From positions 498,501 through 562,500 of the forward strand of contig NZ_CP054394.1 in NCBI RefSeq assembly GCF_022539405.1: DNA of 64,000 nucleotides, written 5' to 3'. Positions 7,745-18,897 of this stretch are shown here, piece by piece (positions within the stretch are counted from its first letter, which is position 1; each line of letters starts with the position of its first letter). This stretch comes from Natranaerofaba carboxydovora (lineage in GTDB: Bacteria; Bacillota; Natranaerobiia; Natranaerobiales; Natranaerofabaceae). The notes beneath the pieces were generated by a model. That model saw only the letters and a program-made list of their open reading frames with translations, was not told where the DNA came from and searched no databases. Both the position numbers and the translations under genes were made by a program.

Positions 7745-8728
7745 CTAGTTGTTGTCTAAATATGGATACATTTTTTTATTTTTTATAAGCAGTAATAGTT
7801 GGGCAATAACAAATAATAATGGAAGTTCAATTAAAGATTCAACTGCAAGAACTAAAGGGACGAGAGGTCTTTCGGGAAAGGCGGCTATGGCAATAGTCAT
7901 TGCAAGAGGAGCATTACGGGCAAGTGTGGTAATTATTAGGCTTACTGCATCCTGATAAGGTAATTTTAGATAACGGCTAATAGTAAGTCCCAACACAAAA
8001 TTGATGGCAAAAAATAATATAACAGGTATTAACAGTGCTAATAAAACAGCCGGGTTATCTATTAATATTTGCCCTTGAGAGGAAAAAATAGCTATGACTG
8101 CAAGGATTAGAAAAAAAGCCTGAAAAGCATCTATATTATTAAGTAATTTTGTTTCAAACCAGTCTTTACTTTTAAAACGTAAAATAAAATACCTTGCTAT
8201 AAATGCTGTTATAAAAGGAATCAGTAAAACTCGAAAAAAACTTTCAAAAAATATATAAGGTTCAATTTCTACCACAGCTCCTGCTAATAAAAATAAATAA
8301 AGGGGTAGAAGCACAAGCTGAAAGAGTAAATTCCAAGGTAAAAGGGTAGTAGAGAAGGCTACATTTCCTGCTGCAAGACCTGTAAAGACCAAGTACCAAT
8401 CTGTACAGGGTGTTACCAAATCCATTATCATGGCCATATAAACATCTGGAGTATCCCTCAAAAAGATATAAGCAAGACCAAAAGCCAAAAGCGGTGTCCA
8501 CAAAAAATTTATTACAAGACTAAGGCCTGCAAGCCTAAAATTTTTGAACCCTTTTTTTAGGCTTGCAGGCTGTATTTGAATAAAAGTCCCAAATAACATT
8601 GTCATTAGAAAAGGCATTATAAAAAGTGAAGAGATATTTGAAAGCGTATTAACTTGACCAATAATTAAACCTACGATTATAGCTATTATCAAGAGAAGCC
8701 ACTGATAATCTTCTAGTATTCGTTTCAT
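7745..8728 (-). CDS. BASS-superfamily permease (annotated elsewhere as arsenic-resistance/bile acid:Na+ symporter)
   Basis: A 327-residue integral membrane protein with about ten hydrophobic segments. The central [10 protein letters not shown] motif after helix 4 and the [13 protein letters not shown] segment identify a branch of the bile acid:sodium symporter/arsenical-resistance superfamily. It begins directly after the feoB stop, so it is the last gene of the feo operon; feoB translation probably couples to it through an internal GGAGGG. The substrate is unknown. Position suggests a role in iron or metal(loid) homeostasis rather than bile acid uptake. This is inference. Confidence 0.8.
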
Positions 8729-10591
8729 TTAAAAGATTAGCCCTCCAACTCTTGCAAGAATTCCACCTATCAAAAAAGCTGTAGTTGTAGTTAATATAAG
8801 TACGAAGACTGCAGTTTTGAGATTAAATTCCTTAGCCAAAGTAGCGACTATAGCTATACAGGGTACATAAAACAGGCCAACTATGGCTCCTGTAAATAAC
8901 TGAACCGTTGTTAACTGCATTTCAAGTAAGGGAAGAACTGTTAGCTCTCTACGCATTACCCCAAGGACTAGGGGAACTGCTGCTTCCTCTGGTAAAAGAA
9001 GCCAAGTTTCTATTAATGGTTCTAGCAGCCTTCCGACTATTGCCATTATACCTGTTTCATATAAAAATGCTGCAAGGCCTACTGCACCTACCATTGGAAG
9101 AGCCCCATCTGTTACGTAATTTTTTATCCTAAGCCAGATTTTTTTAAAAAGTACTTCTCCACGAGGCAGTAAAAATTCAGGTATTTCCATCAGAGTATAA
9201 GGTTTTTCACCTTTTAAAATACGGTCCATTGCAAGACCTGTAAAAGCAATGACAGTGAAAGAGACGAAAAATACGGCTATAACTAAACCAACTGAATTTT
9301 CGGCTGCAGCTAATAATGCTATTAGAGCGCCTGACTGAGCAACACAGGGAATGCTAAGACTAACAAGTGTTGATATTGTTATTCTTTCTTTGTAAGAAGT
9401 AATTGATCTAGTAGCCATAATGGCAGGGATTCCACAGCCATAACCGAGTAGTAGAGGGATTACACTAGAACCCTGTAGACCGATTTTATTTAACAAACCA
9501 TCTAAAAGACTACCTAGCCTTGGAAGATAGCCGCTGTCTTCTAGAAGGCTAAGTGCAGCGTAAAACGAAATTACATAAGGTAGAACTAGAGTAAAAGGCC
9601 ACTCAAGTCCTTTCACCAAAAAACCATACTCGCCTATGAAAATCCTTTGGACTACACCCGGAGGAATAATATTTTCTACTACCATAACTACAGCAGGTAT
9701 TATTAATTCTCTAAAAAGAGGCAGAAGCAAGAACTGTCTTAGCCCCATTCCGACCCCGACTACTAGACCAAATACCAGTAATAATATAACAAAAGCAAGG
9801 GGTAGCCCGGGCCAGGGCTGTATCAGTAGTTCTCCCCATTTTTGGCGTAGGGATACTTCTTTTGTTGCCACTTGTGTTTTTGATGAACCAGAGATTTCTT
9901 CTGCCAATTTCCACAAATCTAAACTTTCATTAGATTTATTGACAGAAGACCCTTTATTATCTTTTATATCTTTGCCAGTTTTTTGACTGGCATAAAACTT
10001 ATCTTTGTCATTCAGAATTTTTGCCAGCGTATTTTCAATATTATTAATCCCTTCGCCTTTTACTGCGATAGTAGGGATTATAGGTATGTTTAGTTTGCCT
10101 TCTAAATATTTGTAATTGATAGCTGTACCTTGTTCTTGTATCAAGTCTATGCGGTTAATTACTGCCATAACTGGTATACCAAAATTTAAAACCTGCAACA
10201 GAAGATGCAGGCTGCTTTCTAAATTTAAAGCGTCTAAGACACAGATTACAGCGGCCGGTTTTTTAGATGTTAGGTTAACTCCTTCTTCCGAGTGACAATG
10301 TTTATTGTTTTTATCTGATATTTCTCCTTTTAGCATATCAACAGCAACTTTTTCTGCTTCATTGGAGGCATTAAGGGAGTAAGTTCCTGGCACGTCGATT
10401 AAGTTAATTAGGTATTTATCAATTTCCACTCGTCCTGCGGTATATTCTATAGTAGTTCCTGCATAATTAGCTACACCTATATCCATTCCTGTGATCCGAT
10501 TGAAAATAACACTTTTTCCGATGTTTGGAGGGCCAATTAGAAGCACATTGACCGGATTTGAATTGTCTTTTGAATCTTGGTGTGAAGGCAT
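8729..10591 (-). CDS. feoB: Ferrous iron transport protein B (FeoB-like GTPase permease)
   Basis: A 620-residue protein with an N-terminal cytosolic G domain and a C-terminal Gate-type membrane domain. G motifs are G1 GPPNIGKS (residues 20-27; the usual form is GNPNVGKS), G2 Thr in YAGTTIE, G3 DVPG and G4 NRID. The membrane part holds the paired Gate/FeoB_C segments, including LLLGYGCGIPAIMATR with its conserved Cys. A strong AAGGAGG precedes the ATG. It lies in a leftward run with feoA, a flippase-like gene and a methyltransferase, behind a Fur-box-like site. It imports Fe2+ across the membrane. The Pro-Pro G1 variant and short length mark a divergent subfamily. Confidence 0.93.
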   Translation of the reverse strand: MPSHQDSKDNSNPVNVLLIGPPNIGKSVIFNRITGMDIGVANYAGTTIEYTAGRVEIDKYLINLIDVPGTYSLNASNEAEKVAVDMLKGEISDKNNKHCHSEEGVNLTSKKPAAVICVLDALNLESSLHLLLQVLNFGIPVMAVINRIDLIQEQGTAINYKYLEGKLNIPIIPTIAVKGEGINNIENTLAKILNDKDKFYASQKTGKDIKDNKGSSVNKSNESLDLWKLAEEISGSSKTQVATKEVSLRQKWGELLIQPWPGLPLAFVILLLVFGLVVGVGMGLRQFLLLPLFRELIIPAVVMVVENIIPPGVVQRIFIGEYGFLVKGLEWPFTLVLPYVISFYAALSLLEDSGYLPRLGSLLDGLLNKIGLQGSSVIPLLLGYGCGIPAIMATRSITSYKERITISTLVSLSIPCVAQSGALIALLAAAENSVGLVIAVFFVSFTVIAFTGLAMDRILKGEKPYTLMEIPEFLLPRGEVLFKKIWLRIKNYVTDGALPMVGAVGLAAFLYETGIMAIVGRLLEPLIETWLLLPEEAAVPLVLGVMRRELTVLPLLEMQLTTVQLFTGAIVGLFYVPCIAIVATLAKEFNLKTAVFVLILTTTTAFLIGGILARVGGLIF

Positions 10592-10670
10592 TTTACTTGT
10601 CCTCCTTGTACAATTGTCTATTTCATCTAAGATATAATTGTTTAATAACTTTTGGTATTAGAATTACTTT

Positions 10671-10970
10671 TTAATGTAGAATAATTTCTTTGGCAATGTC
10701 TCTACTAATAGCTACATTTCTTCCCTCCACAGAGCAAACCATAGGTCCCTTAAAACATTCTCTAGCTTTTAAAGTGACTTTCTTGCCGGGCCTAAATCCC
10801 AATGATTCTAACAGAGGGTTCTCTGGTACTTTATAGATAGTATATTCTTGACCTTTCGTAAGATCCTCAAGGGTGATTTTGGCGTTATCTAAAATATTTT
10901 TCCCGTTATCTTTACTATCGCTGTCTTTTTTAATTTTAAAAGGGTTGACTTTGGCTAAGCAAAATTCCAT
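10671..10970 (-). CDS. feoA: FeoA-domain protein
   Basis: A 99-residue protein. Residues ~33-99 form an SH3-like FeoA domain, with ITLEDLTKGQEYTIYKVPE, LESLGFRPGKKVTLK and VEGRNVAISRDIAKEI. The first 30 residues are a lysine/aspartate-rich extension absent from most FeoA proteins. The start is supported by GAGGTG upstream. FeoA is thought to interact with and regulate FeoB, whose gene follows 79 bases later. Confidence 0.9.
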   Translation of the reverse strand: MEFCLAKVNPFKIKKDSDSKDNGKNILDNAKITLEDLTKGQEYTIYKVPENPLLESLGFRPGKKVTLKARECFKGPMVCSVEGRNVAISRDIAKEIILH

Positions 10971-11030
10971 TTACAACTCACCTCTTTTTTTATTTTTTTA
11001 AAATTTATAATTATGTGTCTTCATATGTCT

Positions 11031-12044
11031 TCATTTTGTTTCTTGCTGGCTTTTAATTAAACTAGCTTTTCTATTATAAACAAGGAGTACAGCGACTCCT
11101 GCTGATAAAACAAGGGGAAACCAAAAAGTAATAAACCTTGTTACAAGTGCAATAGACAGCCCTTCTGCTGAAGTAAGACCAGCGTAAGTAAATACAAGTG
11201 CCATACTTCCTTCAAAAGAACCCAGCCCACCAGGTAATAAAGGGAGCATATTAACAAGATAAGCTGTGAATGTAGCTATAACTAATAGTGTGAAGCTAAT
11301 TTCAAAACCAAGAGTATTAGAAACCAGGTATACTTTTACTGGATACAATATCCAGACCAAAAAAGCTATTAACATAAGCTGCCATTTGTCAGTAAGCTTG
11401 GTGAGCTTTCTTGAGATACCTGAAGCTTCCTTAATGAAATTTGTGACTTTCTCTAACTTATCAAGGATTTTTTTATTTTGAAAAATCCTGCCTAGACTTT
11501 TTCCCATTAAGTCTAATCTAAAAAACAAAAAAAATAATATTAATAAAAAGATCAGACTTAAAAAAGATAGGTAAACAACAACAGGTAAATCCCAGGTGAA
11601 AAGTGTATATATAACAACAAAAAAACTAATTATTACGAATGGAATTAGAGAAAAATATTTGCTTACTAGGGTTATAGCAGTTAATTCCTGATATGATATA
11701 GAAGTTCGCTGTCTCATTAAATATACTTTTGCTGTTTCTCCTCCAAGTTTTACTGATGGAGTAACACTTTCTACAAAAGTGCCTGCTAGATGAATTCCTA
11801 GTACAGTAGTTAGTGATACTTCTTGGTTAAATTTTCTGATTAAAAAGAACCAGATATAACCTGTCATTAAGATGGTCAAAATTTGTAGTATTGCAAGGTA
11901 TAAAAGGTTTAGGGGGTGTACTCTGCTAATGATTTGTTTTACTTCGTCAAATCCAACTAAAAAAACTAAAAAAGTTAAAACTAAAATACCAGCTATATAA
12001 AGTAAGTATAAATTATTTTTTTTAAAAGACAATTTTGATTTCAC
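11031..12044 (-). CDS. Flippase-like membrane protein (LPG_synthase_TM / UPF0104 family)
   Basis: A 337-residue protein with about eight hydrophobic segments, starting at GTG 12044, only 12 bases after the methyltransferase stop. Family hallmarks are VTPSVKLGGETAKVYLMR near residues 95-112 and a C-terminal LPLLPGGLGSFEGSMALVF. This is the membrane part of MprF-type lysylphosphatidylglycerol synthases without the aminoacyl-transferase domain; many such stand-alone proteins are proposed lipid or small-molecule flippases. In this operon a role in moving a product of the upstream methyltransferase is possible but unproven. Confidence 0.85.
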   Translation of the reverse strand: MKSKLSFKKNNLYLLYIAGILVLTFLVFLVGFDEVKQIISRVHPLNLLYLAILQILTILMTGYIWFFLIRKFNQEVSLTTVLGIHLAGTFVESVTPSVKLGGETAKVYLMRQRTSISYQELTAITLVSKYFSLIPFVIISFFVVIYTLFTWDLPVVVYLSFLSLIFLLILFFLFFRLDLMGKSLGRIFQNKKILDKLEKVTNFIKEASGISRKLTKLTDKWQLMLIAFLVWILYPVKVYLVSNTLGFEISFTLLVIATFTAYLVNMLPLLPGGLGSFEGSMALVFTYAGLTSAEGLSIALVTRFITFWFPLVLSAGVAVLLVYNRKASLIKSQQETK

Positions 12045-12056
12045 CCGCTCGCCAAA

Positions 12057-12608
12057 TTATTTTTTAATGTACAATATTGATTTGTCTATTGTTTTCATTG
12101 ATTGTGATACAACGGCATCAGGGGGATAGGCTTTACTAATATAATCATACTGAGTTTTAAAAACATCTCTTGGCTGTCTAAAAATTATCCGTGCTCCATT
12201 TTCTCCATGAGACAAAAGATTATCTAGGATTTTTTCTTTAGGTTCTACTTGAAGAGCTACTATTGAAGCGGTAAAGGATACAGGTGCAAATTCAGAAGCA
12301 TCGGCCTTAACAAACTCTATATTATCTGCTAGGTTATGTTTTTCTAGAGTGTAACTTGCTTTTTCAATGGCTTCTTCATCTTTATCAACCGCAATGACTT
12401 TGGCTCCGATAATCGATGATAAGTGGACTGCGGTAAAAGGTATCGCCCCGCACCCTATATTTAAGATAACATCATTTTTTGATAAACTGCCTAAGAAAAT
12501 TTCTTTTTTTACTACTTTTGAATAAAGCATATTGTATAATTTAAACAATGGGGTTATATTACAGCACATTTTTTCCCACGATTGAAAGGTGTTTGTCATG
12601 AAGGACAA
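12057..12608 (-). CDS. Class I SAM-dependent enzyme, nicotianamine-synthase-like
   Basis: A 183-residue Rossmann-fold protein and first gene of the leftward operon. SAM-binding motif I is NIGCGAIPFTA (near residue 51), with the acidic motif II AVDKDEEAIEKA and motif III VKADASEF. The 'IPFTAVHLS' continuation and a later ALQVEPKEKIL...GARIIFRQ segment resemble nicotianamine synthase (compare GSGPLPLT and GA-LLMLRS), where SAM is an aminobutyryl donor rather than a methyl donor. The resemblance is from memory of the family and needs a profile search. An alternative is an ordinary small methyltransferase. Confidence 0.65.
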   Translation of the reverse strand: MSFMTNTFQSWEKMCCNITPLFKLYNMLYSKVVKKEIFLGSLSKNDVILNIGCGAIPFTAVHLSSIIGAKVIAVDKDEEAIEKASYTLEKHNLADNIEFVKADASEFAPVSFTASIVALQVEPKEKILDNLLSHGENGARIIFRQPRDVFKTQYDYISKAYPPDAVVSQSMKTIDKSILYIKK

Positions 12609-12672
12609 AACTAACTCCCCCTAAATAATACTTTTCTTGTTAGAAAAATAATTTTTGCTAGTTGAGAATGAT

Positions 12673-12687
12673 TGAGAATGATTTTCA
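12673..12687. promoter_or_regulatory. Fur-box-like operator between divergent metal operons
   Basis: TGAGAATGATTTTCA matches the 7-1-7 Fur consensus TGATAATnATTATCA at 12 of 14 defined positions. A second partial copy (TGAGAATGATTGAGA) overlaps it upstream at 12663-12677, the staggered arrangement typical of Fur sites. It lies 65 bases upstream of the leftward operon start and about 75 bases before the rightward promoter -35. Confidence 0.65.
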
Positions 12688-12760
12688 GCCTCATTTAAAT
12701 TTTATAGCTTCATTTAATACCTGTCAATAGAAAATAAACTGCATTTTTAAAATTGGACGT

Positions 12761-12789
12761 TTGACAAAATAAGAAAATTAAATTAAAAT
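12761..12789 (+). promoter_or_regulatory. Sigma-A promoter of the methyltransferase/nickel-type ABC operon
   Basis: A perfect -35 TTGACA (12761-12766), a 17-base spacer and a -10 TAAAAT (12784-12789) lie 50 bases before the GTG start. Confidence 0.75.
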
Positions 12790-12795
12790 GAAGTC

Positions 12796-12823
12796 GTGTC
12801 ACTAATTATGCGTATCGTGTTAC
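12796..12823 (+). promoter_or_regulatory. Direct-repeat operator GTGTCAC-N14-GTGTTAC over the start site
   Basis: Two heptamers (12796-12802 and 12817-12823) recur in the same orientation, 21 bases or two helical turns apart, beginning at the expected transcription start. The heptamer resembles half-sites described for some NikR nickel repressors, which I recall mainly as inverted repeats, so the regulator identity is inference. The position fits repression. Confidence 0.5.
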
Positions 12824-12839
12824 TATAAAGGGGCCGGGG

Positions 12840-13595
12840 GTGTTACTTATTAATCAGGAAAGAATAACTAATTACTGGGAGAAAAGAGCAGGAAATTATA
12901 GTGAAAAAATTATGACTGATATGAACTCTTTCAAAAAAGAAGCATGGAAAGAAATTATTACAGAATACAAAGGAAATGATTGTAGCGATGCTTTGGACAT
13001 AGGTACCGGACCTGGGTTTTTCCCGATTATAATGTCAGAGTTGGGTTTTAGTGTTACAGGTGTAGATTGTTCTAAAGAGATGATAAATGAAGCAGAGAGT
13101 AACATTAATATTGCTGGATATAATGCTACTTTTTCGCAAACAGATTGTCATGAACTGCCTTTTGAAGATGAATCCTTTGATTTTATAATATGCAGGAACC
13201 TGGTTTGGACACTTGTTTCTCCAGACAAAGCATATAAGGAATGGTATCGTGTACTTAGAAAAGGTGGCAGGCTTGTCGTTATTGATGCTAATTGGTTTTT
13301 GCGCTTATCTGATGACTTGTCCCAAAAGAAATACGAACAATCTCAAGAACGGGCAAGAGAAATGGGATACTTAGACAAGGAGATTACTAAGAACCAACAA
13401 GAGGAATGTAATAACATAGCCAAGAAACTTCCTTTAACATACGAAAAAAGACCTGAATGGGATAAAAAATCACTTTTAGATGTTGGCTTTAAAAATCTAA
13501 ATATTAATGAAGATATAACAGATAAAGTTTATGATAATAGGCAAAAAGTTTTGTATAGTTATGCGCCGCTTTTTTTGATTAGTGCTGAAAAATAA
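12840..13595 (+). CDS. Class I SAM-dependent methyltransferase heading a nickel-type ABC operon
   Basis: A 251-residue protein from a GTG start. Methyltransferase motif I is LDIGTGPGFFPI (near residue 47), motif II ends in VTGVDCSKEM, and motifs post-I/III include LPFEDESFDFIICRN and VLRKGGRLVVIDANW. The opening INYWEKRAGNYSEK pattern (here ITNYWEKRAGNYSEK) occurs in methyltransferases adjacent to nickel/peptide ABC transporters. It is followed 58 bases later by a complete family-5 importer, probably in one transcript. The methyl acceptor is unknown; a role in making or modifying an imported metal ligand is plausible. Confidence 0.8.
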   Translation: MLLINQERITNYWEKRAGNYSEKIMTDMNSFKKEAWKEIITEYKGNDCSDALDIGTGPGFFPIIMSELGFSVTGVDCSKEMINEAESNINIAGYNATFSQTDCHELPFEDESFDFIICRNLVWTLVSPDKAYKEWYRVLRKGGRLVVIDANWFLRLSDDLSQKKYEQSQERAREMGYLDKEITKNQQEECNNIAKKLPLTYEKRPEWDKKSLLDVGFKNLNINEDITDKVYDNRQKVLYSYAPLFLISAEK

Positions 13596-13653
13596 TTGAA
13601 TTGATTCTGGTGCGAAAAGTAATATTATAAAAGTTGTACAAGGGAGTGTTAAA

Positions 13654-15252
13654 ATGCAGATACTAAATCAATTGTCTAGATCTAATATATTAATAATACT
13701 ATTATCAATGCTTGTTATAATCACTACGGCATTAGTAGGTTGTGGTAGTGGTGAAGGAGAAGACTCACAACAAACATCAGAAGATGGTGAGGCAGATAAT
13801 CATCTGACTATTGGTGGACCATGGTTTCCTGAAAGACTAGATCCTGTACGTGATGCTACTATGAGTCAAAGACTTGGTATATTAGACACTCTTGTGAGTG
13901 TTAATTATGAGAATGAGTTAGTTCCTGGACTTGCTGATGAATGGGACGTTTCTGAAAACGGTCTTACCTGGACATTTACGTTGAGAGAAGATGTAGAGTT
14001 TCACGATGGGACAGAGCTTAATGCCAAAGCAGTAGAAAAATCTATACAAAGATTAAAAGAAGAAGGTACTTTGTTTGCAGATGTTCCGATTGAAGATATT
14101 AATGCAGTGGATGATTATATTATAGAGATTACTACCTCGGAGTATTTTGCACCGCTACCTTCTTATATGACCAAAGGTGAGACGGCGCCTATATCCAAGA
14201 AATCGATCGATGAAAACGGTGATTTTAAAGATTTGATTGCTACAGGTCCTTACGAATTCAAAGAGTGGGAACAGGATCAGCAAATTACTATTGTAAAAAA
14301 TGAAAACTACTGGGGTGAAGTCGCAGAAGTAGAAGAGATTACTTATAAGGGCATATCAGAAGCATCAACCCGTAATATGATGCTTAGAAATAATGAACTT
14401 GACATCGCTCAAATTTTACCAGCAGACATGGCAGAAGAATTAGAGAATTATGATGATATAGAGAAATATACAGAGCCGATAATGAGGGCTAGAACATTAA
14501 CTTTTAATAAAAATAAGGAGCTATTTCAAGATTTAGAAATAAGACGTGCAATTAGCCATGCAATAGACAAAGAGGCTATAGTCGAGCATATCATGGCAGG
14601 TATAGACAAACCTGCAAATGGTCCTTTCCCTGAAGTTTCAGAATGGGCAAGTGAAGATATGGAAGATTATTCTTATGATGTAGATAAAGCAGAAGAACTT
14701 CTAGAAAGTGCTGGTTTTGAAAAAAATGACGAAGGTGAATTGATAAGAGACGGCGAAAAGCTATCCATTGAAATTGTAACTTATCCTGAGAGAGCTGAAC
14801 TGCCAGATATTGCTGAGGTTTTATACTCTGATCTTAGTCAGATTGGTATAGATGTTAATCTTAATATTGTTGAATACGGGCAGGCGGAGGAATTGAGGAA
14901 CCAGGGAGAATTTGACTTGTATCTTATGAGTAGAAATCTTGGTTTTATCCCTGATCCAGGATTATATTTCATGGATGATTATCATTCTAAAAACACTGAA
15001 GGTAGTGGTTATGGTGCTTACGGTTACAAAAATGAAGATTTAGATGAGCTTTTAGAAAAAGCTAATTCTAGCCAGGATATGGAAGAGAGAAGAGAAATAT
15101 ATAAACAGGCACAAGAGGTAATTGTTGATGATGTTCCGGTAATATTCTTGAATCATTACGTAAATGTTGATGCTGTTAGCTCTAACATACAGGGTTACAA
15201 GATGCATCCTTTAGAGAATACTTTTGGCCTAAACTACCTTAGCATCGAATAG
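13654..15252 (+). CDS. Family 5 extracellular solute-binding lipoprotein (nickel/peptide ABC importer, NikA/DppA-like)
   Basis: A 532-residue protein with a lipoprotein signal: a charged N-terminus, a hydrophobic stretch and lipobox ALVGC (lipidated Cys near residue 30), then an acidic linker. The body shows SBP_bac_5 features: LDTLVSVNYENELVPGLADE, WTFTLREDVEFHDGTELNAK and a C-terminal YKQAQEVIVDDVPVIFLNHY. It captures the ligand outside the cell for the permeases encoded next. The linked methyltransferase and the NikR-like site favour a metal or metallophore over peptides, but sequence alone does not decide. Confidence 0.92.
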   Translation: MQILNQLSRSNILIILLSMLVIITTALVGCGSGEGEDSQQTSEDGEADNHLTIGGPWFPERLDPVRDATMSQRLGILDTLVSVNYENELVPGLADEWDVSENGLTWTFTLREDVEFHDGTELNAKAVEKSIQRLKEEGTLFADVPIEDINAVDDYIIEITTSEYFAPLPSYMTKGETAPISKKSIDENGDFKDLIATGPYEFKEWEQDQQITIVKNENYWGEVAEVEEITYKGISEASTRNMMLRNNELDIAQILPADMAEELENYDDIEKYTEPIMRARTLTFNKNKELFQDLEIRRAISHAIDKEAIVEHIMAGIDKPANGPFPEVSEWASEDMEDYSYDVDKAEELLESAGFEKNDEGELIRDGEKLSIEIVTYPERAELPDIAEVLYSDLSQIGIDVNLNIVEYGQAEELRNQGEFDLYLMSRNLGFIPDPGLYFMDDYHSKNTEGSGYGAYGYKNEDLDELLEKANSSQDMEERREIYKQAQEVIVDDVPVIFLNHYVNVDAVSSNIQGYKMHPLENTFGLNYLSIE

Positions 15253-15263
15253 GAGAATAATGA

Positions 15264-16214
15264 ATGTTAAGCTATATCATAAAAAGACTTTTTGTTTTAA
15301 TCCCTATACTACTTGGGGTTTCTATAATTACATTTTCTCTTGTTTACTTTACCCCTGGGGATCCCGCGAGGCAGGCTTTAAGGCAGCAAATGGGGGGAGA
15401 GGATCCTCCTCCTGCTGCAGTAGAGCAAGTTAGAGATGAGATGGGCTTAAATCAGCCTCTTCATATTCAATATTATAATTGGTTAAAGGGAGCGGTCAGG
15501 GGAGACTTAGGTGAGTCAATGGTTACAGGTAATCCTGTGACTCAAGAAATTATACGGGTGTTTCCCTATACTTTAAAACTTAGTCTTTTTAGTATGCTTG
15601 TTGCAATAGTAATAGCCGTACCTATTGGTATTATATCAGCACTTAAGCATAACAGTATCATTGATTACCTTAGTATGATAGGTGCACTAATAGGTGTGAG
15701 TATGCCAAATTTTTGGCTTGCACTCTTGTTAATGCTAGTTTTTTCTATTCATCTTGGTATTTTTCCTGTCTATGGCAGTGGAGGAGGGATAGAAACTCTC
15801 ATACTTCCGGGGATAACTCTTGGAACAGGGATGGCTGCTATGACTACACGTTTGATTCGTTCAAGTATGCTTGATGTGTTAATGCAGGAGTATACAGAAT
15901 TTGCAAAGGCAAAAGGGCTTTCAAACTGGGAAGTTGTTAATAGACATGCACTTAAAAATGCAATGATTCCAGTTATAACATATTTGGGACTTCAAATTGG
16001 ATGGGCTTTTGAAGGAGCGGTTATAGTAGAAAATATTTTTGCTAGGCCTGGAATTGGACGATTGTTATATGATGCTGTATCGGCAAGGGATTTTCCGGTG
16101 ATTCAGGGTGTTGTTTTGTATATTACAGTCGTTTTTGTGATGGTGAACTTATTAATCGATATTCTTTATGTTTTAATTGATCCTAGAATAAAGTACAATA
16201 AGAGGGAAACATGA
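15264..16214 (+). CDS. ABC importer permease 1 (NikB/DppB-like)
   Basis: A 316-residue protein with six membrane segments, starting MLSYIIKRLFVLIPILLGVS, the typical NikB/DppB opening, and FTPGDPAR soon after. The cytoplasmic coupling loop is EYTEFAKAKGLSNWEVVNRH, with ALKNAMIPV following. It is preceded by AGGAG and overlaps the next permease by four bases (ATGA), implying translational coupling. It forms the heterodimeric channel with the second permease. Confidence 0.93.
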   Translation: MLSYIIKRLFVLIPILLGVSIITFSLVYFTPGDPARQALRQQMGGEDPPPAAVEQVRDEMGLNQPLHIQYYNWLKGAVRGDLGESMVTGNPVTQEIIRVFPYTLKLSLFSMLVAIVIAVPIGIISALKHNSIIDYLSMIGALIGVSMPNFWLALLLMLVFSIHLGIFPVYGSGGGIETLILPGITLGTGMAAMTTRLIRSSMLDVLMQEYTEFAKAKGLSNWEVVNRHALKNAMIPVITYLGLQIGWAFEGAVIVENIFARPGIGRLLYDAVSARDFPVIQGVVLYITVVFVMVNLLIDILYVLIDPRIKYNKRET

Positions 16215-17077
16215 TGAAAAAAAATAAATTATTTATTATTGGTCTTATCTTAACATTGGTATTTAGTTTTTTGGCATTATTTGGCCCTTATATTGCACCT
16301 TATGAGTATGACTCGCAGGAACTAGAATCAAGACTTCAGGGGCCTAGTAGGGATTATCCTTTAGGGACGGATGAATTTGGTAGGTGTCTATTAAGTAGAC
16401 TTCTTTATGGTACAAGGATAACTCTTGGGGCTTCTTTTTTTGCGGCATTATTTACCGCTATTATCGGAATATTACTTGGATTAATAGCTGGCTATTATTC
16501 TGGCTTTATCGATGAGATTATAATGAGACTTACTGATATTGTTTTGTCTTTTCCTGCAATAATTCTTACCCTTGTATTGGTTGGAATTATGGGGCCAAGT
16601 CTTACTAATATTGTAATAGCAATGACCCTTGTAGGATGGACCCACTATGCTAGAGTAGTTAGGGGTTTAGTGTTATCTATTAAAGAAGAACCTTATGTTA
16701 AATCTGCTAAAGCTATGGGAGCTTCAAATACTTATCTTATGTTTAAGCATATTTTGCCAAACACGTTAAGTCCCATTATTGTAATGTTTACCCTTGGCAT
16801 GGGGACAAGGATAATCACTATCTCAGGTCTTAGCTTTTTGGGGTTAGGGGCAGGTCCTCCTTTGCCTGAATGGGGGAGAATACTTGATCAGGGGGTATCT
16901 TATATGGGTAGAGCTCCTTACCTATCCATATTTCCTGGACTTAGTATCATGCTTGCAGTTTTAACTTTTAATATATTGGGTGATGGATTAAGGGATTACT
17001 TGAGTCCTTATAATAACTATCAATTTAGTCAGTATACTGGTGAAGGATTATCCCAGGATGAAGTTAGTAGAAGTTAA
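16211..17077 (+). CDS. ABC importer permease 2 (NikC/DppC-like)
   Basis: A 288-residue permease with an N-terminal helix, the PLGTDEFGRCLLSRLLYGTR segment diagnostic of NikC/DppC, five further helices and the coupling motif EEPYVKSAKAMGAS. The start overlaps the previous stop by four bases. It ends DGLRDYLSPY, as in family members. Partner of the NikB-like subunit. Confidence 0.93.
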   Translation: MMKKNKLFIIGLILTLVFSFLALFGPYIAPYEYDSQELESRLQGPSRDYPLGTDEFGRCLLSRLLYGTRITLGASFFAALFTAIIGILLGLIAGYYSGFIDEIIMRLTDIVLSFPAIILTLVLVGIMGPSLTNIVIAMTLVGWTHYARVVRGLVLSIKEEPYVKSAKAMGASNTYLMFKHILPNTLSPIIVMFTLGMGTRIITISGLSFLGLGAGPPLPEWGRILDQGVSYMGRAPYLSIFPGLSIMLAVLTFNILGDGLRDYLSPYNNYQFSQYTGEGLSQDEVSRS

Positions 17078-17120
17078 CTATATTATAATTTTTAATATAT
17101 TTTTTAAGTGAGGGTTAAGA

Positions 17121-18152
17121 ATGAGAGTTAATAATAAGTTTGAAACTGCAGATCCTCTAATCAAAATAAAAGGTTTAAATGTCAAATTTCATACAAAGGA
17201 CCAAATCGTCAATGCAGTACAGGGCGTAGACTTACAAATTAAAAATAATACTACCACTGCGCTTATTGGTGAAACTGGCTGTGGCAAATCAGTGATTGGC
17301 AAGTCAATAATGAGGATTTTGCCACCTAATGCGCATATTGATGGCAAAATTTATTTTAAAGGTGAGAACCTCTTGGATTTAAATAGTAAAAAAATGCAGC
17401 GGTTAAGAGGAAAAGAACTTGCTGTAATCCCCCAAAATCCATCAAAATCTTTAAATCCTGTTCTAAAGATCAAGACTCAGGTTGTTGAAACTTTAAAAAA
17501 ACACTCTAGTATTTCTCATAAAGAAGCAGAAAAGAAAACTTTAAATATTTTTGAAAGATTAAACTTACCATCCCCAAAAGACCAAATGGAAAAATATCCT
17601 CATCAGCTTAGTGGAGGGATGAATCAAAGGGTGCTTGCGGCAATCAGTATGTCTTCGGATCCTTCACTGCTGGTAGCAGATGAACCAACAAAAGGACTTG
17701 ATGCGATAGTTCGTAGAAAAGTGGTCGAGCTAATTAAAGAGCTGAAAGAGCTAACGGGCTCGTCTATATTGTTAATTACTCATGATTTAAAAGTTGCTTC
17801 TTATCTGTGTGATGAAGTTGGGATTATGTATCGTGGAGAAATAGTTGAATATACAGGTATAGATTCTTTTCTTAATAATCCAGCTCATCCATATTCCAAA
17901 GCACTTTTGAATTCTTTGCCCGAAAACGGATTAAATCCAATTAAGAGGCTTACACCGCAAATTACAACTACAAAAACTCAAGATGAATTTGAATTTAATG
18001 GCTGTAAGTTTTTTGATTATTGTCCTAATTCTATTTCTAAATGCAAAAACAATCATCCCCCTCTCTTTAATTTGGAAGGAGATAGAATGGTGAGGTGCTT
18101 TCTTGGTGATAAAAGTAGAGAACTTGACAAAAAAGTTTCCTGTCTCGGCTAA
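17121..18152 (+). CDS. ABC importer ATP-binding protein 1 (NikD/DppD-like)
   Basis: A 343-residue ATPase with Walker A GETGCGKS, signature LSGGMNQR, Walker B LLVADEPTKGLD and the H-loop in LITHDLK. The C-terminal oligopeptide-transporter extension holds a four-cysteine pattern (GCKFFDYCPNS...C...C) that in relatives binds an iron-sulfur cluster. A start near a GAGGG site is supported. Its 3' end overlaps the second ATPase gene by 47-50 bases in another frame. Confidence 0.93.
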   Translation: MRVNNKFETADPLIKIKGLNVKFHTKDQIVNAVQGVDLQIKNNTTTALIGETGCGKSVIGKSIMRILPPNAHIDGKIYFKGENLLDLNSKKMQRLRGKELAVIPQNPSKSLNPVLKIKTQVVETLKKHSSISHKEAEKKTLNIFERLNLPSPKDQMEKYPHQLSGGMNQRVLAAISMSSDPSLLVADEPTKGLDAIVRRKVVELIKELKELTGSSILLITHDLKVASYLCDEVGIMYRGEIVEYTGIDSFLNNPAHPYSKALLNSLPENGLNPIKRLTPQITTTKTQDEFEFNGCKFFDYCPNSISKCKNNHPPLFNLEGDRMVRCFLGDKSRELDKKVSCLG

Positions 18153-18897
18153 TATATTTAAGAAATCCTATTTTGCTGCTGTAGATGATGTATCTTTTGA
18201 GATAAAAAAAGGTGAAACTTTTGGCCTGGTGGGAGAGAGTGGTTGTGGAAAATCTACACTTGCCCATTTGTTGTTGAAACTTTTAGAACCTAGCGAAGGT
18301 AATATTATTATAGATGGGTTGGATATAACTAAACTAAAGCCAAAACAATTATTTGAACTTCGATCAAAGATACAAATTGTCTTTCAACATCCCGAGTCCT
18401 CTTTTAACCCAATGTTTAAAATTTATAAAAGTATGGTAGAACCTTTAAGGCTTCACAGGTTAGTTAAAGATAAAACCGAAGAAAAGCATTTGATTCACCG
18501 CTCTCTTGATATGGTAGGGCTTAAAGAAGGGCATTTGAAGCGTTATCCTCATGAACTAAGTGGAGGGCAGATACAAAGGCTTGTACTGGCAAGAATTTTG
18601 TTATTAAAACCTCAAATTATAGTTGCAGATGAGCCAACTTCAATGTTAGATGTTTCAGTTCAAGCCCAGGTTTTAAGCTTACTAAAAGAGCTCCAACTAA
18701 ACTTGGATATAACTCTTGTTTTAATATCTCATGACCTAGAAGTGATACGCTTTACTAGTGATAGGCTTGGGGTTATGCATGAGGGCAAACTTGTTGAACA
18801 AGGACAATCTGACGAAATACTAAATAACCCAAGTCATCCGTATTCAAAAGAATTAATCAGTGCTTTTGATAATTTTAGGATGAAAAATTTTGGTTAA
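18103..18897 (+). CDS. ABC importer ATP-binding protein 2 (NikE/DppF-like)
   Basis: A 264-residue ATPase with Walker A GESGCGKS, signature LSGGQIQR, Walker B IIVADEPTSMLD and H-loop SHD. The start is TTG at 18103 or GTG at 18106, both served by GAGGTG inside the upstream gene. It lacks the C-terminal cysteine extension, as usual for the NikE-type subunit. It ends the operon, followed by an intrinsic terminator. Confidence 0.92.
   Translation: MVIKVENLTKKFPVSANIFKKSYFAAVDDVSFEIKKGETFGLVGESGCGKSTLAHLLLKLLEPSEGNIIIDGLDITKLKPKQLFELRSKIQIVFQHPESSFNPMFKIYKSMVEPLRLHRLVKDKTEEKHLIHRSLDMVGLKEGHLKRYPHELSGGQIQRLVLARILLLKPQIIVADEPTSMLDVSVQAQVLSLLKELQLNLDITLVLISHDLEVIRFTSDRLGVMHEGKLVEQGQSDEILNNPSHPYSKELISAFDNFRMKNFG

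Follow-up and report, generated by a model that had tools for sequence, protein, structure and literature searches.

A predicted short branch of the nicotianamine synthase family in a conserved iron cassette, with a possible lipid product

The chelators known to be made by nicotianamine synthase (NAS)-type chemistry are either secreted or cytosolic. In the 64,000-nucleotide stretch of Natranaerofaba carboxydovora DNA analyzed here (the window), a gene for a small NAS-like enzyme, designated mini-NAS, lies among genes for ferrous iron uptake and a flippase-like membrane protein, and is transcribed divergently from a methyltransferase gene that heads a nickel-type importer operon. The question raised by this locus is what such an enzyme makes, and whether both operons serve the same product. 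The original prediction was that the locus may make, export, and re-import a small metal ligand of a new type. A search of the open-access literature found no description of this gene combination.

Results

Layout of the Locus

All eleven predicted ORFs are present at the positions originally assigned to them, and both arms diverge from a shared control region (12609–12839), as had been proposed (Table 1). Searches against Pfam and NCBIfam gave the gene order mini-NAS, LPG_synthase_TM, FeoA, FeoB, and SBF/ACR3-like permease for the left arm, and methyltransferase, family-5 solute-binding protein (SBP), two permeases, and two ATPases for the right arm. Mini-NAS begins at either TTG 12608 (183 aa) or ATG 12599 (180 aa) and is separated from the downstream LPG_synthase_TM gene by 12 bp. 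FeoA and FeoB are both present, as in a Feo operon. The SBF/ACR3-like permease, which adjoins mini-NAS in none of the other loci in the neighborhood table, is probably accessory.

Table 1. Features of the two divergent arms and their control region (window coordinates)
Feature	Position	Strand	Basis
SBF/BASS-superfamily permease, ACR3-like	7745–8728	-	PF01758 92 bits; TIGR00832 122 bits (below cut-off 283)
FeoB ferrous iron transporter	8729–10591	-	FeoB_N 142 bits; Gate 108 bits
FeoA	10671–10970	-	PF04023 50 bits
LPG_synthase_TM flippase-like membrane protein	11031–12044	-	PF03706 156 bits; TIGR00374 132 bits
Mini-NAS, predicted single-domain NAS/CntL relative, 180–183 aa	12057–12608	-	Profile, Foldseek, catalytic residues
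Predicted Fur box TGAGAATGATTTTCA	12673–12687		12/14 match; shuffle p=0.01
Left-arm promoter TTGACA-17-TAAAAT	12699–12727	-	Consensus match only
Right-arm promoter TTGACA-17-TAAAAT	12761–12789	+	Consensus match only
Class I methyltransferase P0002	12840–13595	+	Methyltransf_11 87 bits
Family-5 solute-binding lipoprotein, nickel type	13654–15252	+	PF00496 316 bits; Opp5A_nikA 320 bits (below cut-off 600)
NikB/Opp2B-type permease	15264–16214	+	NF045470 366 bits (above cut-off 350)
NikC/Opp2C-type permease	16211–17077	+	NF045474 307 bits (above cut-off 300)
Importer ATPase 1	17121–18152	+	ABC_tran and oligo_HPY
Importer ATPase 2	18103–18897	+	NikE/OppF-like matches

Mini-NAS Groups with NAS and CntL

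As a single sequence, the window's mini-NAS is ambiguous. It scored 35 bits against Methyltransf_31, 25.1 bits against PF03059 (just below the cut-off of 27.1), and 39 bits against the NCBIfam CntL model, far below that model's cut-off. Its relatives, including several B-type paralogues, reached 33–52 bits against PF03059, above the cut-off. The ambiguity was resolved by a family profile (A2) built from 41 relatives and searched against the PDB, because this profile ranked NAS and CntL first: the archaeal thermonicotianamine synthase MtNAS scored 86 bits (2e-23) and CntL 72 bits (3e-19), and the next protein outside NAS/CntL scored 34 bits, leaving a margin of about 40–50 bits. The AlphaFold model of mini-NAS (pLDDT 90) gave MtNAS (3fpe) as the top Foldseek match (E=1.2e-13). 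The NAS-likeness proposed for the 12057–12608 product is therefore upheld by two methods that both place MtNAS first. Placement in an unrelated methyltransferase family, raised as the outcome that would speak against the proposal, finds agreement in the single sequence, for which Methyltransf_31 outscores NAS, but not in the family profile, which favors NAS/CntL. One further candidate, L025 (G032), was dropped from the set; its protein is longer and resembles an ordinary methyltransferase.

Like MtNAS, mini-NAS has a SAM-binding Rossmann domain, a GxGxxPxT motif, and a catalytic Glu and Tyr. It differs in lacking the ~80 N-terminal residues of NAS (median length about 190 aa), and so does not possess the full-length two-domain core of the family (~260 aa), and in its setting, a Feo cassette that also holds membrane and lipid genes. 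By profile and fold, mini-NAS forms a new, shortened branch within the NAS/CntL family (PF03059). Loss of the N-terminal residues would leave its acceptor side more open.

In MtNAS, Glu81 and Tyr107 deprotonate the acceptor amine (PMC10491745), and their counterparts in AtNAS1 are essential (PMC10248798). The equivalent mini-NAS residues are Glu9, placed at the Glu81 position by hhalign, and Tyr26, placed at Tyr107 by both HMMER and hhalign; the matching to MtNAS residue numbers rests on the 26-residue spacing and on chain numbering. In the HHalign comparison, full-length relatives from the same survey carry a Glu corresponding to MtNAS Glu81. Among 78 relatives, conservation is 76/76 for Glu9, 75/77 for Tyr26, and 78/78 for Arg141. 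Mini-NAS very probably catalyzes the same kind of reaction as NAS and CntL, transfer of the 3-amino-3-carboxypropyl (ACP) group from SAM. A Thermoplasmatota archaeon (L043:5876-9355) has genes for UbiA, an ApbA-like reductase, and two consecutive mini-NAS proteins, one with His at the Tyr26 position.

Mini-NAS Belongs to a Conserved Iron Cassette

A scan of genome contigs, together with a survey covering 399 Bacillota genomes, yielded 65 mini-NAS loci, including the window; survey matches below ~95 bits, which were generic methyltransferases or canonical CntL/NAS, were not counted. Mini-NAS is no rarity, since about 40 of the 399 sampled genomes carry it. Most of the 65 loci are from Bacillota. 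Other phyla that appear in MAG titles include Mycoplasmatota, Lentisphaerota, Chloroflexota, Spirochaetota, Thermodesulfobacteriota, and Thermoplasmatota archaea, some of these bins being perhaps misassigned.

In 53 of the 65 loci, FeoB is encoded no more than 6 kb from mini-NAS. LPG_synthase_TM is directly downstream in 49, with a median gap of -5 bp (overlapping or abutting), a PssA-like gene is nearby in 26, and a second mini-NAS occurs in 13. Cassette orders include FeoA-FeoB-miniNAS-LPG-PssA, FeoA-miniNAS-LPG-FeoB, and miniNAS-miniNAS-FeoA-FeoB, the miniNAS-LPG order being nearly invariant. Mini-NAS is fused to a FeoA domain twice (L035 and L041), and LPG_synthase_TM is fused to a NAS domain once, in an MprF-like arrangement (L089 of G307). 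Neither LPG_synthase_TM nor PssA is found near mini-NAS in some loci, e.g., L102, L092, L114, and the lone copies L019, L023, and L095; at L092, mini-NAS adjoins a Mn/Fe ABC importer and a DedA-family protein. Elsewhere, a fusion of a FeoA domain with a DtxR-family iron-dependent repressor is encoded beside the cassette (L154:4554-5243), and the cassette PssA or LPG_synthase_TM is followed by a MacB-type ABC ATPase and an FtsX permease (L055:6470-8385 and L022).

The predicted Fur box in the window sits immediately downstream of the left-arm -10 element. Across the family, Fur boxes at p<=0.05 were detected for 26 of 59 mini-NAS operons, against ~3 expected. They also precede mini-NAS genes that have no Feo partner (L019, L023, L095, and L092), and genes of the Fur or DtxR family occur within mini-NAS cassettes. 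The FeoB linkage, the mini-NAS-FeoA fusions, and the Fur boxes bear out the metal-acquisition role originally assigned to the locus, which almost certainly serves iron acquisition. The best explanation of the left arm, with about even chances of being right, is a ferrous iron uptake cassette under predicted Fur control, with a lipid-modifying branch. A direct repeat (TCGTGTCAC / TCGTGTTAC, spacing 21 bp) is located at 12794–12823, after the right-arm promoter but ahead of the methyltransferase gene, and is possibly an operator for another metalloregulator.

Phosphatidylserine Synthase without the Decarboxylase

Seven cassette PssA-like enzymes were tested against the phosphatidylserine synthase model TIGR00473; two exceeded the cut-off, and the others fell below it with PssA or archaetidylserine synthase still their best match. 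The PssA catalytic motif is present in 26 of 27 cassette PssA-type enzymes. In 11 genomes with a cassette PssA, the cassette copy is the sole strong PssA match, and phosphatidylserine decarboxylase is absent from all 11. Among 30 mini-NAS-free control genomes, the decarboxylase was found in every one of the eight that have PssA. This contrast (0/11 vs. 8/8) corresponds to a Fisher p of about 1e-5 among related Bacillota, shared descent being ignored. Because PssA occurs without the decarboxylase in carriers and never in controls, phosphatidylserine (PS) in these genomes seems to be made for a purpose other than phosphatidylethanolamine. Two close kin of carriers that lack mini-NAS (G135 and G021) have neither PssA nor the decarboxylase. 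PssA is missing from the cassette of the window and from those of its nearest relatives; the window genome has two PssA-like genes outside it, and phosphatidylserine decarboxylase was not found in that genome. The genome encoding the LPG_synthase_TM-NAS fusion (G307) has zero PssA at 1e-6.

The PS headgroup is itself an amino acid whose α-amine is free, and amino acid α-amines are what NAS-family enzymes alkylate. A lipid acceptor would account for PssA, LPG_synthase_TM, and mini-NAS together, and on balance the gene content favors a lipid as the acceptor of mini-NAS. The LPG_synthase_TM family is broad, and this branch of it may act in flipping.

The Right Arm Is Separable from Mini-NAS

In several other Bacillota, orthologues of the methyltransferase P0002 (>200 bits) adjoin Nik/Opp-type importers, and in most of these cases mini-NAS is lacking; weaker homologues adjoin FecCD-type importers. 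At E<1e-15, P0002 is absent from five mini-NAS-bearing relatives, so the presence of one arm does not entail the other. Three surveyed genomes (G000, that of the window, G086, and G299) encode both mini-NAS and a strong P0002 orthologue, and the two genes are adjacent in two of them, which is very unlikely to be due to chance. At L150 of G086, one strand carries PermB-PermC-MT2-Fer4_16-SBP-ATPase-ATPase-EamA-mini-NAS, in which MT2 is the P0002 orthologue. At L089 of G307, a divergent methyltransferase-importer operon lies beside the cassette, its methyltransferase coming from another family, and a homologue of that methyltransferase is found beside the mini-NAS cassette at L031. An Opp-type or FecCD importer is linked to mini-NAS in the window, L089, and L114/L150, and is absent from nearly all other loci. 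AlphaFold and Foldseek related P0002 to generic small-molecule and phosphoethanolamine methyltransferases, and a scan of viral contigs for P0002 returned distant methyltransferases only. A Fer4_16 double-cluster protein is encoded between the P0002 orthologue and the SBP at L150:5140-5835 and L161:9209-9907, and DUF4198 proteins adjoin mini-NAS or the P0002-type importer operon at L046, L151, and L160.

The pairing of the two arms proved rare: only 3 of 65 loci have a family-5 SBP close to mini-NAS, and elsewhere orthologous right arms are present in its absence. No opine dehydrogenase is present in the whole genome of the window, in agreement with the dehydrogenase noted as missing; CntM (PF10100) is absent from 13 mini-NAS genomes, including this one, and was detected in three positive-control genomes. 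The suggestion that the methyltransferase takes the place of the dehydrogenase was rejected because the P0002 family accompanies importers with or without mini-NAS. The right arm is best described as a separate, second metal-uptake module, which the window and G086 combine with mini-NAS. A ligand common to both arms is possible but not required.

Discussion

We propose that the cassette makes a chelating lipid. Mini-NAS would move the ACP group from SAM onto an amino acid's α-amino group, and the likeliest acceptor is the serine headgroup of PS. The PS would come from the cassette's PS synthase in many relatives, and from one of the two PssA-like genes elsewhere in the genome in the case of the window. 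Where a pair of mini-NAS paralogues occurs, ACP could be transferred twice, yielding a nicotianamine-like headgroup. The LPG_synthase_TM protein would then flip the modified lipid to the outer leaflet, where it would act as a membrane-anchored chelator gathering Fe(II) for FeoB. Family membership, catalytic residues, linkage, fusions, Fur boxes, and PssA without the decarboxylase are the sequence support for this scheme, from which we infer transfer of ACP instead of methyl, the lipid acceptor, flipping, and chelation. Taken as a whole, the lipid-cassette explanation has perhaps one chance in two of being correct. Its most specific form, in which a minimal NAS converts PS or a related aminophospholipid to a nicotianamine-like lipid that is flipped under Fur control and delivers Fe(II) to FeoB, falls a little short of that.

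A lipid product is favored over a secreted one because FeoAB, LPG_synthase_TM, and PssA (26 loci) accompany mini-NAS. The make, export, and re-import idea of the original prediction is accordingly weakened by these recurrent partners, while the gene run at L150 of G086 agrees with it. In such a scheme, a small soluble opine- or nicotianamine-like ligand, made by mini-NAS with no need of a dehydrogenase and perhaps decorated by the methyltransferase, would be exported by LPG_synthase_TM or EamA and recovered as its metal complex through the family-5 importer. The union of importer, P0002 orthologue, EamA, and mini-NAS at L150 suits a soluble ligand better than a lipid, and the adjacency of mini-NAS and P0002 in two of the three genomes having both, the divergent operon of G307 (albeit with a different methyltransferase family), and the Mn/Fe ABC importer at L092 point the same way. 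Known opine clusters, moreover, may carry methyltransferases and use Opp-type importers (PMC7438024). We nevertheless consider a soluble metallophore less likely, though a serious rival: the family-5 SBP is confined to 3 of 65 loci, whereas LPG_synthase_TM and PssA recur, the right-arm module occurs in other genomes without mini-NAS, and the opine dehydrogenase is missing from the 13 mini-NAS genomes.

The same lipid linkage could also be read as methylation of a phospholipid headgroup by an enzyme that keeps the NAS fold, remodeling the membrane under iron limitation. There is precedent for lipid methylation by small single-domain SAM enzymes, and the best Pfam scores of the single sequence are to generic methyltransferase models; yet almost every relative retains the catalytic Glu and Tyr of NAS, and NAS ranks first by both profile and fold, making this reading improbable. 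Finally, mini-NAS might make a cytosolic chelator or modify FeoA, FeoB, or another protein, so that iron is handled after entry. The two mini-NAS-FeoA fusions and the few mini-NAS-Feo loci without LPG_synthase_TM or PssA, such as L102, would fit, but the LPG_synthase_TM/PssA linkage and the LPG_synthase_TM-NAS fusion are left unaccounted for, and we regard handling after entry as very improbable.

The proposed lipid cassette touches several known systems. With the staphylopine and pseudopaline (opine-like zincophore) systems it shares the use of a NAS-family enzyme in metal uptake, an adjoining family-5 importer in the window, and an EamA exporter with an importer in G086. It differs in that CntL is full length and mini-NAS is short, and the four canonical clusters (L116, L117, L119, and L120) are without FeoB, LPG_synthase_TM, and PssA. 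MprF is a lysyl-phosphatidylglycerol synthase/flippase, and the likeness to it lies in an LPG_synthase_TM domain beside (49 loci), and once fused to, a putative headgroup-modifying enzyme; in the mini-NAS cassette, however, the catalytic part is a NAS domain, and the MprF synthase domain is absent. Betaine-lipid synthesis by BtaA/BtaB provides a precedent for transfer of ACP from SAM to a lipid, and we know of no link between that pathway and iron. BtaA is reported to be nonhomologous to NAS (PMC10491745).

What is new here, on the evidence of sequence comparison, is that a known enzyme family has a short branch encoded in a conserved iron cassette. If the proposal is correct, membrane-bound NAS-type chelation would be a new way of gathering iron, and part of the Feo operons of many anaerobes would acquire a biosynthetic role. 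It would also give a lipid role to one branch of LPG_synthase_TM and a use for phosphatidylserine in bacteria without its decarboxylase.
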